Positions 6,096 to 11,972 of a DNA stretch of 12,389 bases are shown here, piece by piece; the first letter of the stretch is position 1, and each line of letters begins with the position of its first letter. The translations under genes were made by a program, and so were the position numbers. Under the pieces are notes generated by a model. That model did no database searches. It was not told the origin of the DNA and saw only the letters and a program-made list of their open reading frames with translations. The stretch spans positions 1 to 12,389 of the forward strand of contig JACRDV010000120.1 in assembly GCA_024860865.1 (NCBI GenBank), given 5' to 3'. Source of the stretch: JACRDV01 sp024860865 [NCBI: Methanobacteriota archaeon]. GTDB taxonomy: Archaea > JACRDV01.

Positions 6096-6116
6096 TTCGA
6101 TAACCAATTCTTGTGC

Positions 6117-6662
6117 ATGGAAATTGATGACTCAACTATTGCAAGAGTGTTCTCTTTTGATGAGCACCTCAAAGGAAGCGAAAAAACTAGATTTTACCGC
6201 AAGCTCTACGGTTATCGAAGTGTTATAAAGGGCAAGCTTTACCATTATTCTGGATTAGCTGATGAAATAGTGTGTTTCTACTTAGGAAAAAGTATAATTG
6301 CAACGCCAAATTATTTCACAGAAAAGCTCAGAAAATTCTTCAGGGATTGGTCGAAGGTTTCAGTGATTGAATTCGACGCCATTCTACCGAACCAAGAGCG
6401 CTGGAATGCTATTGACAAGCATGTGCTTGGCCTTAAAATCGAGTTTTTAAGTGGGACATCAATTTTAATAAATGAGATCGAAAACCTCCTAGAATTGCTA
6501 AGCTCTGGAAGAGAAAATTTAGGGCCATCTGAAGAAGAGAAAGCAGTTATCGTTGTGAAAGCAGTTAAAGAAATAGTGCAATACGATTGGACGGATGGAA
6601 AAGAGTACAGCAAGAAAATTTTAGAGAGAATCCAACCCATCACAAGTTTGATATCTAAATAA
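6117..6662 (+). CDS. Conserved-looking archaeal protein of unknown function
   Basis: I do not firmly recognise this 181-aa protein. It has no membrane segment, signal peptide or cysteine motif. The first 100 residues contain FYRKLYGYRS, a KGKLYHYSGLADEI stretch and a beta-rich segment YLGKSIIATPNYFTEKLRKFF. From memory this layout resembles a family of uncharacterised archaeal proteins, but I cannot confirm it. The second half is helical and acidic (LINEIENLLELL, SSGRENLGPSEEEKAVIVV). I prefer ATG 6117 because a TATA box lies about 26 bp upstream and no ribosome site is visible; a TTG at 6111 would add two residues. It lies between the tbp unit and mcm, where some archaea have a GINS gene, but I see no GINS motif. 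Base composition is like its neighbours, and it is very likely a real gene. Confidence 0.75.
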   Translation: MEIDDSTIARVFSFDEHLKGSEKTRFYRKLYGYRSVIKGKLYHYSGLADEIVCFYLGKSIIATPNYFTEKLRKFFRDWSKVSVIEFDAILPNQERWNAIDKHVLGLKIEFLSGTSILINEIENLLELLSSGRENLGPSEEEKAVIVVKAVKEIVQYDWTDGKEYSKKILERIQPITSLISK

Positions 6663-6755: not shown

Positions 6756-6796
6756 ATGAATACTTTCGATTACCTCCCCCTCTCTCTTAAAAAAGC

Positions 6797-6825
6797 TTAA
6801 ATAGAGCTCCGTATGCTTAATAAAG
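6797..6825 (+). promoter_or_regulatory. mcm promoter candidates
   Basis: TTAAATAG (6797-6804) and CTTAATAAAG (6816-6825) are both TATA-like. They would start transcription near 6827 and 6846 respectively, leaving a leader that contains the GAGGT ribosome site. The second start would overlap the origin-recognition-box-like dyad. Confidence 0.35.
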
Positions 6826-6842
6826 CCGGAAGAATGGAGCTT

Positions 6843-6867
6843 AACCCCTTTACTTCCACTGGAAAGG
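6843..6867 (-). promoter_or_regulatory. Origin-recognition-box (ORB)-like site upstream of mcm
   Basis: Read on the minus strand, the site runs TTTCCAGTGGAAGTAAAGGGG. Its TTCCA-N-TGGAA dyad (6854-6864) with an AAA stretch and a G-run downstream is the layout of archaeal Orc1/Cdc6 recognition boxes (dyad, then AAA, then G-string). Only one copy is visible in the window. It lies 44-68 bp before the mcm start, so it could be an Orc1/Cdc6-controlled operator or a part of an origin. Confidence 0.5.
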
Positions 6868-6911
6868 TTGTACACTAAAGATAAGCCAGGTAAATCCTCT
6901 GAGGTAGTAAT

Positions 6912-9900
6912 TTGGATATAACTACAGATATACCACAACGGCTAGGATTTGAGACTAAAGTTTCAAAGTTTGAGGAATTTCTTCAAAGGTATTGCAATGA
7001 AAATGTTCTAAATCTAGGTCTTTATCCGGAGAAAAAATCTCTAATTATAAATTTCGCAGATTTAGATAAGTTTGACAGTGCGTTAGCAGATGAACTGATT
7101 AAGTATCCAGATCAAACAATTCAGGCTGCTGAGGCTGCACTTAAGCAAATTATCTCACGCCATTGTGAATTGTCGAATGAAGTTAATTTTCATGTCAGGT
7201 TTAAGAATTTATTTGAAAAAACTCCAGTTAGAGAAATCAGAAGCGAACATATTGGAAAATTGATTGAAGTTGAAGGAGTTGTTAGAAAATCAACTGATGT
7301 TAGACCAAAGGTTGTAAAAGCAATATTCCGCTGCAAGCGCTGCGGGGAAGAAATAAGTATTTTACAATTTGAAAAATTCAGAACTCCTTTTGAGTGCACA
7401 AATTGCCAACGTACAGGACAATTCGATTTTTTAATTGAGAAGTCAAATTTTATCGATGCTCAAAAAATTAGAATTCAAGAGCCCCTTGAAGGTTTGCGAG
7501 GCGGAGAGCAACCTAAACAAATCGATATCTATCTTGAAGAAGATTTAACTGGAAAAGTAACTCCTGGCGATCCTGTTGAAATTGTTGGAATTTTAAAATC
7601 TCAGAGAAAGTTTGGAGATAATAGCACAGTTTTTGAGATTTTTTTAGATTGCAATTATGTTGAAACACTTGAAAAGGAGTTTGAAGAATTAGAGATTACT
7701 CCAGAGGATGAAAAGGCAATTAAAGCACTAGCGAATGATCCGGAAATTTACCGAAAAATCAGAGATTCAATTGCACCTCACATCTATGGTCATGATGAAA
7801 TAAAGGAAGCCATAATGTTGCAACTCTTTTCTTCTCCTGCAATTCACTTGCCCGACAAAGCACGAATTCGAGGAGATCCACATGTAATTCTCATCGGTGA
7901 ACCAGCGACAGGAAAATGCCTTACTAAAGATATGGAACTCATTCTGAGAGATGGTCAAGTAATTAAAATTGGAGAGTTTATTGAAAACGTCTTTAAATCA
8001 AACAAGTCAAAAATTTTCGAAACATCTGATGGGAGACAATATATTAAAATAAACAATTTGATTTCAGCTCTTTCATTATATCCAGATTTAAAAATAAAGC
8101 AAAGCAATATTTCTATTGTTTGGAGACGAAAATATTCAGGAAAAATACTCAATATTTTCACTAGATCGGGAAGGCAAATAAAAGTTACTCCTGAGCATCC
8201 GCTTTTTACTATCCAAGAAGGCAAAGTTGTAACGGTTCCAACTAGGGCTTTTGAAGTAGGGGATTATCTAGCGACCCCTAGAAGGATATCCATTGTTGGT
8301 AAATCTCAGGAATTAAACATCAAAATTCGAAGGGGTAAAACAAATGCCTTTCATATTTCTATACCTAACCAAACAACTCCTGGACTAATGCGATTTCTAG
8401 GATATTTAATTGGGGAAGGATCTAGCCTTGAGAGAGTAGCAAGATTTTCAAATTCAGATCCAATCTTAATAAATGATTTTATAAAGATATCTAAGAAATT
8501 GTTCGGGATAGTTCCACACCATTATATTTACTCTAGATCTAGAAGAGAAGTTCAAATAACATCTATAGAAGTAAAAGAATTTATTAAAAAATTAGGAAGA
8601 GAAATTCTAGAAAATTCCAATAAGAAAGCCCTGCCATGTTTTGTATTTAAATGTAGTGACGAGGAAATAGGAAATCTAGTAAAAGCAATTTTTGATGGAG
8701 AAGCAACAGTTTCTAAAACTGGCAAACAAATAGAAATTACATTAGGAAGTCGCTCATTAATAAAACAATTACAAATTCTTTTACTCAGGATGGGAATCAT
8801 TTCTTATTTTAGACCAACCTTTAAATATGCAACCAATTCAAAAAATAAAATCAAAAGAAAATATTTTAGGCTATGGATAACTGGCCGCGATAATTTAATT
8901 GCTTTTTACAAAAATGTTGGATTTCAGAGTCAAGAAAAAAGGAAGCGATTACAGAGGGCAATTAGCAAACTAGATTTAAAAATAATCCCTCAAACAAATG
9001 TGGATGTAATCCCGAAGATTGGAAAATTATTACGAAACTTACGTAAAGCAAGCAAACTAACAAAACATGATTTGGGCCTTTCTAACGTTGCACAATTTAG
9101 AGCCTACGAACTAGGAAAGAAAAACCCCTCCAGACAAAAATTGCTTAATATAGTTTTTGATCTATCTCGGAGTCAACAATTATCAAATGGAGGTTCATTA
9201 AACAAAGGAATTCAAAATCTAAAAAAATTGGCTGAATCAGACATTTACTGGGATAAGATAATAAAAATCAAAGAAACTCTCACTGATGAATACGTTTATG
9301 ATCTAACTATTGAGGGTACGCCTAATTTTATTGCAAATGGAATAATAGTTCATAACAGTGAGATCTTGCAATTTGTTGCAAATAACTTAGCTCCTCGCGG
9401 AATTTATACCAGCGGTAAGGGAAGCACGAAAGCAGGACTTACAGCGGCAGCTGTGCGCGATGAATTTGCTGAGGGTAGTTGGTCACTTGAAGCTGGAGCA
9501 CTTGTACTTGCTGATCGAGGATCTTGTGCAATTGATGAATTTGAGAAGATGAGCGAAGATGACCGTTCTGCAATGCACCAGGCGATGGAACAACAATCTT
9601 ACCACCCTTCAGTAGAAATACTGTTTACAGGTGGCGAAAAAATCAAAATTGGAACTTTCGTTGAAGGATTGTTTGAAAAATATTCTAAAAGAAAGATAAT
9701 TGGGTATAATTGTGAAATTCTCCCAATTAAAGAACTTAATATTCAATTATGGAGTACAGATTTTAACAAGACCTTTCCGATTAATGTAAATAGAGTGAGC
9801 AGGCATAAAGCTCCTCCATATTTCATCAGACTTAGGTTCTCAAATGGAAGAGAGATTATTGTAACACCTTCACATCCAATTTATGTCTCCAGAAACAGTA

Positions 9901-11972
9901 AAATAATCGAAGTTTTTGCTGAAGAGGTTGAAATTGGAGAATATGTACCAGCACCGCGAAAACTTCCACTTACTAGAAGTAAATTCACTTTGGACACTGT
10001 TGATCCATGGCATTTTAATCTAAAAAGGATCAAAATTCCGAATAAATTGTCACCTTCATTTGGAAGATTATTAGGTTATCAAATTTCGGAGGGGCATGCT
10101 TATTTTAATGAAAGTAATCGATATGCTGAACTTGGTGTCACGAATTCTGATGGAAAAGTAATTAATGAAATGACTGCCCTATTTTTAGAGAAATTTTCGT
10201 TGAATCCTTATACCCAAGTAAAGAACAATTGGGGGACCAGCGTATCCGTTCTTAGGTATCCCTCAAGAATTCTATATGCGTTTTATCAGAAAAACTTCCC
10301 TGAAATATTGAAAGGCGCTACTGCTAAGCGAATCCCAAAAAATATCTTTGGCACTAATATAAGGTGCAAAATCGAGTTTCTTAAAGCAGCATTTATTGGA
10401 GATGGTTTTGTCGATAGCGAAAGATTTGGGTACAGAACAGCTTCCAGAAAACTCGCTGAAGACATGCAAGACGTTTTTTGGCAAATTGGAATTGACTCGT
10501 ACATATCAAGAGATGATAATTATTTCAAAGTAGTTATAACTGGTACGCAAAGTATGTTAAAATTCGCTAATAAAATTGTTGAAGATTGGGATTGGAGATA
10601 TAAAAGAATTCAAAGATTGATAGCAAGAAGCAAGAAAGTTAACCGCTCACATGATGTATCACCGCCAGATGTAGTTATTGTTTTAAAAGATATGCTTAAA
10701 AAAATGCACATGGATGATGGTTACTTAAATGAACATATTAAACAGAATTATGGAATAACCCTCCCAACACTGCAAAAATACATTAAAAGGTTAGAAAATT
10801 CAGCAACAAAAGCAAAGAAGAAAATATCGACCTTAAATAACGCCAGAGAAATCAGAAAGATTTCAAAAATATCGCTCCTTGAAGTTGCAAAAGCAATGCA
10901 ACTCTCGACGAGCATGATTACTTACATTGAGCGAAATAAAGCTTCCAGATATAGAGAACTGCTAATAAAAGTCAAAGAGCTTGCAACAGAAAAATTAAAA
11001 GAACTAGAAAAGTCGATTTCAAGAATAAAATATGTATTTCTGAACTCTGATTTGCGTTGGGGTAAAATTGTAAAGAAAGAAATTATTCCTAATGCTGGTA
11101 ACTATAAAAATAATTTTGTCTATGACGTCACGGTAGAGCCAACAAATACATTTGTGAGTGAGGGATTAGTTCTTCATAATTCTGTTTCTATTGCAAAAGC
11201 AGGTATTGTGGCTACATTAAACGCTCGCACAGCGATTCTTGCAGCTGCAAATCCAAAGTACGGAAGGTTTGACAAATACAAATCAATGGCGGAGCAAATT
11301 AATTTAAGCCCGACGCTGCTTTCTAGGTTCGATCTCATTTTCTTTGTTGAAGATGATCTCTCAACAACTAGAGAGATGGCAAAACATATTTTAAATTCAG
11401 TCGTTGAGCCGGAAAAAATCTTACCTCCTATTGAACCTGAATTTTTAAGAAAATACATCGCATACTCTAGACAGCACATTGTCCCTCAATTATCAAAAGA
11501 AGCTAGAGATAAGATCGAAACTTTCTTCACTGTTCTAAGAGAGCAAGTCGCTGGAGATAGAAGTTCTCCTGTTCCAATGACTGCACGCCAACTATGGGCG
11601 ATCATTAGGTTGTCCAGATCAAGCGCTAGAGTTAGATTAAGCAATGAGGTTACTCTTGAAGATGTTGGGCGAGCTATTAGATTAGTCAATTTATCGCTCA
11701 AGCAAGCAGGAATCGATTTTGAAACAGGGAAACTTGACATAGACAAAATTGAAATTGGAATCACAATGTCACAGCGCGATAAAATTGTTACAATTCTAGC
11801 AATTATTGAAGCAGTTGAGGATCTCCATGAAGGGTTGGCTCCACTTGAAGAAGTTTTAGCAGAGACTGAAAAGAGAGGGATTGAGCGGCGAGTAGCTGAA
11901 GAATTGATTGAGATGTTAAGGAAGCGGGGTGATCTGATTTCACCTCGCCATGGTATTATAAAAAAAGCATGA
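6912..11972 (+). CDS. mcm: MCM replicative DNA helicase precursor with two inteins
   Basis: MCM is the hexameric ATP-driven helicase that unwinds DNA at archaeal forks. The 1686-aa precursor contains 678 aa of MCM and two inteins of 480 and 528 aa. The N-terminal domain has a zinc site (Cys141, Cys144, Cys162, Cys165). Walker A GEPATGK (329-335) is separated from its Ser816 by intein 1. The central exon (816-895) carries Walker B with Asp875-Glu876 in CAIDEF. Intein 2 follows EQQ. The last exon (1424-1686) begins SVSIAKAG, with sensor 1 Asn1447 in AANPKYG, the arginine finger Arg1472 in LLSRFD and a C-terminal winged-helix region. The TTG start has GAGGT 6 nt upstream (6901-6905). All catalytic residues are intact once both inteins splice out. 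The gene appears to be transcribed alone. Confidence 0.97.
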   Translation: MDITTDIPQRLGFETKVSKFEEFLQRYCNENVLNLGLYPEKKSLIINFADLDKFDSALADELIKYPDQTIQAAEAALKQIISRHCELSNEVNFHVRFKNLFEKTPVREIRSEHIGKLIEVEGVVRKSTDVRPKVVKAIFRCKRCGEEISILQFEKFRTPFECTNCQRTGQFDFLIEKSNFIDAQKIRIQEPLEGLRGGEQPKQIDIYLEEDLTGKVTPGDPVEIVGILKSQRKFGDNSTVFEIFLDCNYVETLEKEFEELEITPEDEKAIKALANDPEIYRKIRDSIAPHIYGHDEIKEAIMLQLFSSPAIHLPDKARIRGDPHVILIGEPATGKCLTKDMELILRDGQVIKIGEFIENVFKSNKSKIFETSDGRQYIKINNLISALSLYPDLKIKQSNISIVWRRKYSGKILNIFTRSGRQIKVTPEHPLFTIQEGKVVTVPTRAFEVGDYLATPRRISIVGKSQELNIKIRRGKTNAFHISIPNQTTPGLMRFLGYLIGEGSSLERVARFSNSDPILINDFIKISKKLFGIVPHHYIYSRSRREVQITSIEVKEFIKKLGREILENSNKKALPCFVFKCSDEEIGNLVKAIFDGEATVSKTGKQIEITLGSRSLIKQLQILLLRMGIISYFRPTFKYATNSKNKIKRKYFRLWITGRDNLIAFYKNVGFQSQEKRKRLQRAISKLDLKIIPQTNVDVIPKIGKLLRNLRKASKLTKHDLGLSNVAQFRAYELGKKNPSRQKLLNIVFDLSRSQQLSNGGSLNKGIQNLKKLAESDIYWDKIIKIKETLTDEYVYDLTIEGTPNFIANGIIVHNSEILQFVANNLAPRGIYTSGKGSTKAGLTAAAVRDEFAEGSWSLEAGALVLADRGSCAIDEFEKMSEDDRSAMHQAMEQQSYHPSVEILFTGGEKIKIGTFVEGLFEKYSKRKIIGYNCEILPIKELNIQLWSTDFNKTFPINVNRVSRHKAPPYFIRLRFSNGREIIVTPSHPIYVSRNSKIIEVFAEEVEIGEYVPAPRKLPLTRSKFTLDTVDPWHFNLKRIKIPNKLSPSFGRLLGYQISEGHAYFNESNRYAELGVTNSDGKVINEMTALFLEKFSLNPYTQVKNNWGTSVSVLRYPSRILYAFYQKNFPEILKGATAKRIPKNIFGTNIRCKIEFLKAAFIGDGFVDSERFGYRTASRKLAEDMQDVFWQIGIDSYISRDDNYFKVVITGTQSMLKFANKIVEDWDWRYKRIQRLIARSKKVNRSHDVSPPDVVIVLKDMLKKMHMDDGYLNEHIKQNYGITLPTLQKYIKRLENSATKAKKKISTLNNAREIRKISKISLLEVAKAMQLSTSMITYIERNKASRYRELLIKVKELATEKLKELEKSISRIKYVFLNSDLRWGKIVKKEIIPNAGNYKNNFVYDVTVEPTNTFVSEGLVLHNSVSIAKAGIVATLNARTAILAAANPKYGRFDKYKSMAEQINLSPTLLSRFDLIFFVEDDLSTTREMAKHILNSVVEPEKILPPIEPEFLRKYIAYSRQHIVPQLSKEARDKIETFFTVLREQVAGDRSSPVPMTARQLWAIIRLSRSSARVRLSNEVTLEDVGRAIRLVNLSLKQAGIDFETGKLDIDKIEIGITMSQRDKIVTILAIIEAVEDLHEGLAPLEEVLAETEKRGIERRVAEELIEMLRKRGDLISPRHGIIKKA
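7917..9356 (+). mobile_element. Intein 1 of MCM, in Walker A, with LAGLIDADG endonuclease and HTH
   Basis: This 480-aa in-frame intein begins with Cys1 (CLTKDMEL) right after Walker A GK and ends with His479-Asn480 before the extein Ser. Splicing blocks are clear: block A at the start, block B TPEHPLF (Thr91, His94), block F YVYDLTIEG (459-467) and block G GIIVHN (475-480). The endonuclease part has two LAGLIDADG-type helices, FLGYLIGEGS (acid Glu167) and LVKAIFDGEATV (acid Glu262), so homing could still work. At about residues 366-411 (9021-9149) there is an XRE-like helix-turn-helix, from LLRNLRKASKLT to YELGKKNPSRQKLL, probably aiding target binding. All residues needed for class 1 splicing are present. 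Confidence 0.95.
9597..11180 (+). mobile_element. Intein 2 of MCM, Ser1 type, with LAGLIDADG endonuclease and HTH
   Basis: This 528-aa in-frame intein follows the conserved MEQQ and ends in LVLHN before extein Ser1424; joining restores MEQQSVSIAKAG. Its first residue is Ser (SYHPSVEILF), not Cys, a less common but workable nucleophile. Block B is TPSHPIY (Thr90, His93), block F FVYDVTVEP (507-515) and the end is His527-Asn528. The LAGLIDADG helices are LLGYQISEGH (Glu165) and FLKAAFIGDGFV (Asp269). A helical insert (about 355-400) may be another DNA-binding unit, and residues about 415-455 (10839-10961) form an XRE-like helix-turn-helix: EIRKISKISLLEVAKAM then STSMITYIERNK. Little sequence similarity to intein 1 is visible, so the two probably entered separately. 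Confidence 0.95.
11958..11967 (-). terminator. Possible terminator of the Lrp gene
   Basis: On the minus strand a CTTTTTTTAT tract lies just past the end of the extended Lrp reading frame and inside the 3' end of mcm. T-runs like this end transcription in archaea. Assigned by position only. Confidence 0.3.

Follow-up and report, generated by a model that had tools for sequence, protein, structure and literature searches.

In bacteria, DnaA boxes mediate autoregulation of the initiator as well as the control of other initiator-controlled genes. To our knowledge, how helicase supply is matched to origin firing in archaea is little understood. The archaeal sites most similar to the one described here are the origin recognition boxes (ORBs) of oriC regions, e.g. 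those of Sulfolobus oriC1, Methanomicrobia, and Methanomassiliicoccales; at origins, flanking ORBs are often of opposite polarity, as described in PMC6742236 and PMC4595724. Isolated ORBs have also been reported, namely in 'Ca. M. intestinalis', where they lie downstream of ftsZ and nifH/nifE (PMC4153887, Table 2), and in Thermococcales, within the DP1 gene (PMC2643942). In addition, the Orc1-2 protein of Sulfolobus is described in PMC9738581 as a damage-response regulator acting at promoters, including its own.

The 12,389-nucleotide stretch analysed here (hereafter, the window) contains an ORB-like site in front of mcm, the gene for the replicative helicase. This site resembles the oriC ORBs in sequence and in the spacing of the dyad and the G-string, but it is single, has no inverted partner and no adjacent initiator gene, and lies in the mcm leader. 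With the isolated ORBs it shares the property of being a lone ORB at a chromosomal gene; in PMC4153887 and PMC2643942, however, those are reported as positions, whereas the present site lies in the promoter region of the helicase gene and recurs there in several lineages. The role proposed below resembles that of Sulfolobus Orc1-2 in placing an Orc1-family protein at promoters, but Orc1-2, according to PMC9738581, is a non-initiator paralogue with the site ANTTTC, whereas the present site is an initiator-type ORB. The mcm ORB would work in the manner of bacterial DnaA boxes, as an initiator site in the promoter of a replication gene, although the initiator and the site are unrelated to the bacterial ones and the transcriptional effect is a prediction. 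Isolated ORBs have already been reported, but no description of an ORB in an mcm promoter was found among the papers listed in the literature searched (titles and abstract openings, with few subscription journals). A recurrent ORB in the mcm promoter provides, in lineages such as Methanoperedens, a specific circuit that can be tested. It is also relevant to origin prediction: a predictor that calls ORB-bearing intergenic stretches beside replication genes origins, as described in PMC4164010, could miscall ORB-bearing mcm promoters.

The features surrounding the site are listed in Table 1. The ORB is separated from the mcm start codon by 47 bp and matches the common ORB motif of DoriC, TCCA[CG]T[TG]GAAA[TC][GA]AAGGGGT (PMC4164010, Table 1), at 19 of 20 positions, with a change of A to G as the only departure. 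A looser 21-mer, YTCCANNNGAAAYNNAGGGGT, is matched with one mismatch. This 21-mer was derived from known ORBs together with three sites of the present data set (that of the genome's cdc6 and those of loci L011 and L019); the DoriC motif is independent of how the 21-mer was chosen. In 150 dinucleotide-preserving shuffles of the window, the 21-mer had no match with 0–1 mismatch, 7 with two mismatches, and 50 with three. The bare dyad, TTCCANTGGAA, was rejected as evidence in its own right, because about one match is expected per window when one mismatch is allowed (0.83 expected; one found, exact). The significance of the mcm site derives from the G-tract. No further match to the 21-mer with fewer than five mismatches is present in the 12.4-kb window, and cdc6 is absent from the nine ORFs scanned.

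Table 1. Features at and around the ORB-like site in the window
Feature	Sequence	Position	Strand	Remarks
Uncharacterised gene upstream of the ORB		6111..6662	plus	183 aa; no Pfam match
Best BRE/TATA-like element	AAAAAAGCTTAAATA	6789..6803	plus	Full score in a crude consensus scan; predicted promoter
Second TATA-like element	CGTATGCTTAATAAA	6810..6824	plus	Same crude scan; predicted start on the ORB
ORB-like Orc1/Cdc6 site	TTCCAGTGGAAGTAAAGGGGT (minus strand, 6864-6844); ACCCCTTTACTTCCACTGGAA (plus strand, 6844-6864)	6844..6864	minus	
Dyad of the ORB-like site	TTCCAGTGGAA	6864-6854	minus	Facing mcm
G-tract of the ORB-like site	GGGGT	6848-6844	minus	
RBS-like element	GAGGT	6901..6905	plus	Precedes TTG 6912; predicted from sequence
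mcm, replicative helicase		6912..11972	plus	1686 aa; two LAGLIDADG inteins; from the ORF list and Pfam

The mcm product has Pfam matches to MCM (1e-75), MCM_OB, MCM_N, MCM_lid, and two intein domains. An in-frame TGA at 6900-6902, ahead of the TTG, excludes an earlier mcm start and thus places the ORB in the leader/promoter. Promoter geometry was deduced from a crude home-made consensus scan for BRE/TATA elements: the best element predicts a transcription start at about 6823-6830, so that the ORB would lie at or just after the start, between this element and the start codon. The initial annotation had described an ORB-like dyad and G-tract on the minus strand, located in the mcm leader/promoter, as a single copy in a window without cdc6. 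All of these points hold, and the identification as an ORB is further supported by the fit to the published motif and by the similar sites that precede the genome's own orc1/cdc6. By its motif, the mcm-leader site is a genuine ORB, predicted to be bound by Orc1. Two minor features of the neighbourhood may be added. By our own reading of the sequence, one of the mcm inteins directly follows the Walker A lysine. The uncharacterised gene upstream has a sole other homologue among the fetched loci (L092:895-1461, 36% identity), which is located in a Hodarchaeaceae genome and also lies beside an ORB.

Comparable sites elsewhere in the genome were found only before an initiator-type orc1/cdc6 gene and on contig C86. 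The dyad followed by 2-4 bases and AAGGGG occurs in exact form at two places in 1.54 Mb, the mcm site and C86:5397 (reversed control, 0). A 20-mer built on these two sites occurs with up to three mismatches at three places, the third being C20:291, while the control at this laxer setting also gives one. These genome-wide scans used the stricter patterns; the general 21-mer was applied to 40 of the 160 contigs (331.8 kb), where it gave no match with 0-1 mismatch and the DoriC motif gave none with 0-2. The random scatter of similar sites against which the initial annotation had cautioned is not what these scans reveal. The C86 site is intergenic; its two neighbours are small, divergently oriented genes whose only matches, to helix-turn-helix and Myb-like domains, are weak. 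No replication family was found for either neighbour, and no homologue of either was detected among the loci searched. By eye, the C86 ORB is flanked by an imperfect inverted repeat, GTCAGACAAACGACGGACAA / TTGTCTGCTAATTGTCTGAC (L004:5340-5450), and it could represent a second origin or else a regulatory hub.

Both orc1 genes are encoded outside the window, on contigs C20 and C6. On C20, the cognate initiator gene is itself preceded by two boxes. The first, C20:291-311, matches the common motif at 20 of 20 positions (0 mismatches) and lies 86 bp before the predicted start of orc1/cdc6 (Pfam Cdc6_C), and the second, at 92-112, is 199 bp further up, with one mismatch to the 21-mer and three to the common motif. 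Downstream of orc1/cdc6 are a gene with a match to DNA polymerase subunit B, taken for PolD DP1, and then DP2. The ORB pair, at the end of the contig, is a probable oriC. The C20 protein matches PDB chain 2qby_A, which we take to be Orc1-1 of S. solfataricus, with 367 bits. Of the four arginines that PMC9738581 names as ORB contacts in A. pernix Orc1, three are conserved in it and the fourth is replaced by lysine (alignment read by eye, numbering shifted by 12); the genome thus encodes an initiator-type Orc1 with ORB-contacting wing/helix arginines. In the same reading, with the same shift of 12, the Orc1/Cdc6 paralogue on C6 keeps none of the four. The mcm site might belong to another protein recognising a similar dyad, e.g. 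the C6 non-initiator paralogue acting as a transcription factor, as Orc1-2 does in Sulfolobus (PMC9738581). This is very unlikely, because Orc1-2 recognises ANTTTC and not the ORB dyad, according to the same source, and because contig C6 contains no match to the common motif within four mismatches.

The reading that we favour, and to which we would give about an even chance, is that the ORB is bound by the C20 Orc1 and controls the expression of mcm rather than starting replication. We infer both the binding and its sign, repression. Orc1 on the mcm ORB would block RNA polymerase; helicase synthesis would fall when free ATP-bound Orc1 is plentiful and would rise when Orc1 is engaged at oriC or has been inactivated. 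Since orc1 has its own ORB shortly before its start, one protein would set the levels of both the initiator and the helicase.

Searches restricted to the family, class, and phylum of the window genome reached only G000 and gave no relative, and none was retrieved from genome contigs with the MCM N-terminus as query. Named contigs were scanned with a conserved MCM alignment, and the best 80 of 487 confirmed loci were taken, 79 of them with a start. The mcm-start zone was defined as -400 to +60, which amounts to 35.7 kb in total, with 817 kb of other DNA. In these 79 loci (from the best 80 of 487), the 21-mer with up to two mismatches occurs five times at mcm starts and once elsewhere; the outside rate predicts 0.04 at mcm starts, which corresponds to an approximately 100-fold enrichment resting on 5 versus 1. 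At three mismatches, the numbers in the same loci are 1 at mcm starts and 6 elsewhere, and at four mismatches they are 9 and 151. The excess is gone at these levels, and the enrichment is therefore confined to good matches. The five loci are those of archaeon OS_PC_MetaG.mb.32 (L011), uncultured archaeon LFW-280_3_1 (L019), two Methanoperedens (L022 and L027), and DHVE2 (L061). L019 falls within the Methanoperedens family according to the family search described below, and the five ORBs are spread over three lineages. Start codons of the relatives were assigned by simple rules. L028, which has no start, was left out, and loci with an improbable (L053), wrong (L250), or no usable start (L205 and L209), with masked bases at the start region (L196), or with only 17 bp upstream (L259) were kept in the counts as lacking a site. 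Using both cdc6 proteins, cdc6 was sought in 133 fetched mcm loci and found only in L057; none of the 19 ORB-bearing mcm loci listed among them has it, many of these spanning only 2-4 kb. In L057, from Hodarchaeaceae, cdc6 (7707-8930) lies shortly downstream of mcm, and the fetched stretch has no ORB with three or fewer mismatches. The mcm of L018, titled Bacteroidales bacterium Bact_23, groups inside Methanothrix, and this bin is thus probably mislabelled or contaminated.

A site at the promoter of the same gene is present in relatives, but patchily and with some degenerate copies: in 6 of 23 loci of the sister phylum, in 8 of 30 of Methanoperedenaceae, and in one DHVE2 locus. The sister phylum, i.e. 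the phylum of the L011 genome (G001), comprises 23 genomes, of which 22 have an MCM match, and 23 mcm loci were examined. The six ORB-like sites are on the minus strand, as in the window, at -110 to -133, and have two (G001 and G068), three (G060 and G064), one (G061), and four (G063) mismatches. Two other loci (G050 and G051) have a plus-strand match at -63/-64 that shows four mismatches and lacks the G-tract, and the remaining 15, including L205 and L209 (no usable start) and L196 (masked), have nothing within four mismatches. Conservation upstream of mcm, the point on which the initial annotation had made its case depend, is therefore borne out in the six loci with a site on the same strand, but not in the 15 with nothing, and several of the copies are degenerate.

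Matches with two mismatches are weak evidence by themselves: genome-wide, the sister phylum has 105 matches with up to two mismatches versus 64 in the control. G060 contains fifteen three-mismatch matches in 400 kb. Given these numbers, the copies other than that of G061 count only by their shared place and strand. Sites with 0-1 mismatch number 34 in the sister phylum, distributed to cdc6 (22), mcm (1), other places (6), and stretches without context (5); the one at mcm is that of G061 and is the only such site in that genome. When the window and the six site-bearing loci, which were chosen for the site, were aligned, 9 of 18 invariant columns fell within the 21 ORB columns and 7 further ones in a second motif. 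This motif, similar to ACTTTTCCNRYGCTCTC, precedes mcm in nine aligned sister-phylum genomes (L187-L195), three of which lack the ORB; relative to the ORB, it is located some tens of bp further upstream. Tested in 400 kb of G060 as the mark of a putative regulon of replication genes, ACTTTTCCNRYGCTCTC has an exact match only at mcm and one-mismatch matches at two places in or beside ORFs, none of which was recognised by eye as a replication gene.

In the MCM tree, the window is sister to 15 rows of the group (100/99), and those 15 are held together at 100/98. The minus-strand site is missing from a nested clade of seven rows and, outside this clade, from G062 and G065; presence at the base followed by later losses in the sister phylum is one reading of this distribution. 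The patchiness among relatives, the degenerate copies with three to four mismatches in G060, G063, and G064, and the high controls at two mismatches would also be expected of a chance match or of the relic of an old origin. We nevertheless consider such an explanation quite improbable, since matches with 0-1 mismatch are absent from the 150 shuffles and the 331.8-kb genome sample, and since place and strand are shared with G061 and with the five other site-bearing sister genomes, whose MCM N-terminal identity to the window is 50-57%.

The family search for Methanoperedenaceae covered 34 genomes, 32 of which had a match, and the best 30 mcm loci were examined. Eight of these contain the 21-mer with up to one mismatch within 350 bp of mcm, all on the plus strand at -81 to -240; three of the eight are the genomes of L019, L022, and L027 again, and the other 22 loci have no such site within that distance. 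By the same scan, six of the eight also have a second, degenerate box, which precedes the ORB by 159-165 bp. L244, L250, and L268 have another gene between mcm and the ORB, which is approximately 0.85-1.3 kb distant from mcm and is accompanied by a box some 160 bp away, and the remaining 19 of the 30 loci, one of which has only 17 bp upstream, show neither arrangement. The ORB and the box are in direct orientation, about 160 bp apart, in L240-L243, L246, L247, L251, L256, L244, L250, and L268, and the DNA that they enclose is 64-75% AT (59% in one of the 11). The existence of such a direct pair, able to stand away from mcm, is the best evidence of a role beyond plain promoter control.

Geometry differs among the lineages. 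The ORB is on the minus strand after the TATA-like element in the window; it is on the minus strand in the six sister-phylum loci, where, unlike in the window, it precedes the best such element by 69-82 bp in four loci, this element being close to the start codon, while the order is ambiguous in the other two; and it is on the plus strand in Methanoperedenaceae. These differences in distance and strand indicate that a single promoter mechanism is not conserved. On the favoured reading, an Orc1 site would have been recruited repeatedly to control mcm, probably by repression in the window genome. A more far-reaching proposal, which we put forward only tentatively, is that of an old archaeal circuit in which Orc1 at an ORB before mcm would tie helicase supply to licensing through its ATP state; this circuit would predate the split from the sister phylum, would have been lost in part, and would have re-arisen in Methanoperedenaceae and DHVE2 (Thermoplasmatota).

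Features expected of an origin were compared with those of the mcm site. GC skew shows no sign change at the ORB in the window, on what is a short contig. In 400 kb of G060, the minimum of cumulative GC skew falls in the 485-490 kb bin, beside a cdc6 gene whose three ORBs occupy 483.9-484.3 kb. A change in the sign of the slope is seen at this minimum with flanks of 50 and 80 kb, but not with 20 kb, and the strongest slope change in the 400 kb is near 503 kb. At the mcm gene of G060 (637.5 kb), the slope is positive on either side whichever of the three flank lengths is used, and its change ranks 147 of 300 positions. Several ORBs of opposite polarity flanking an AT-rich element are not found in the window, which has one ORB, nor is an adjacent initiator gene or a turning point of base skew, whose minimum in G060 is beside cdc6. 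ORBs at mcm are single or form direct pairs. The initial annotation had offered an origin element or initiator control as alternatives, with a leaning toward control, and had proposed GC skew around mcm as a check. The skew favours control, and the leaning is partly supported, by ORB identity and mostly favourable tests, but it is weakened by the patchy occurrence and degenerate copies among relatives and by the isolated ORBs that precede many other genes in some Methanosarcinia.

ORBs are the defining element of origins, and the ORB and box of Methanoperedenaceae enclose AT-rich DNA and are in some loci separated from mcm. Both would be accommodated if the site were an accessory or dormant origin, or served to load MCM: Orc1 would recruit MCM to the AT-rich promoter, and replication would start there under some conditions. 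We regard this as unlikely. The 12.4-kb window has one ORB only, the two boxes of Methanoperedenaceae are in direct orientation, whereas those of origins often or usually have opposite polarity (as described in PMC6742236 and PMC4595724), no cdc6 is present in the ORB-bearing mcm loci checked, and the skew sign changes neither at the window site nor at the mcm of G060, whose copy of the site is weak.

The 49 whole genomes behind 50 of the named loci (from the best 80 of 487) were searched with the 21-mer at up to one mismatch. Such an ORB is present in 35 of the 49 genomes, with 131 sites in total versus 9 in the control. At least 42 sites lie within 2 kb of a recognised cdc6, this number being a lower bound because the labels rest on BLAST to the window genome's two copies within cut flanks; 3 precede mcm by no more than 350 bp, 17 fall inside ORFs of at least 150 aa, and 69 lie elsewhere. 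In other words, 89 of the 131 sites are away from a recognised cdc6, and 3 of these 89 are before mcm. These placements indicate that isolated ORBs are common in some Methanosarcinia, where they precede many other genes. In two genomes (G052 and G054; L213:1501 and L237:1501), an ORB is found where two convergent genes meet, apparently the same pair in both; the gap is only a few bases long, and a promoter would not be expected there. The ORB of L101 likewise lies between convergent genes.

Sites of this kind could form a reservoir that holds Orc1 as the titration site datA does, the closeness to mcm then being without regulatory meaning. Such a role would suit the abundance of isolated ORBs in some genomes (89 of the 131 sites have no recognised cdc6 nearby) and those between convergent genes (L101, L213, and L237), and a titrating function has been proposed for the ORB cluster of oriC2 in H. 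hispanica (Haloarcula), as described in PMC4010727. For the mcm site, it is a rather unlikely explanation: a single site titrates little, mcm starts are enriched approximately 100-fold (5 versus 1, in 79 of the best 80 of 487 loci), and strand and distance are common to six sister-phylum genomes.

Several further placements of ORBs were observed. An ORB is located upstream of a Tyr/Trp-type tRNA synthetase gene in two Methanoperedens genomes and one Hodarchaeaceae genome (G009, G013, and G026; L139:2499, L142:671, and L092:1501). In another Methanoperedens genome (G010), a one-mismatch ORB at L135:2524 lies 130 bp upstream of a gene for a RadA homologue. Small proteins of approximately 140-155 aa without a Pfam match, alike by eye, are encoded next to paired ORBs in genomes of Njord-, Bathy-, and Methanomethylicia (L091:1724-2188, L182:2936-3388, and L185:1865-2284) and are possibly an origin-linked family.
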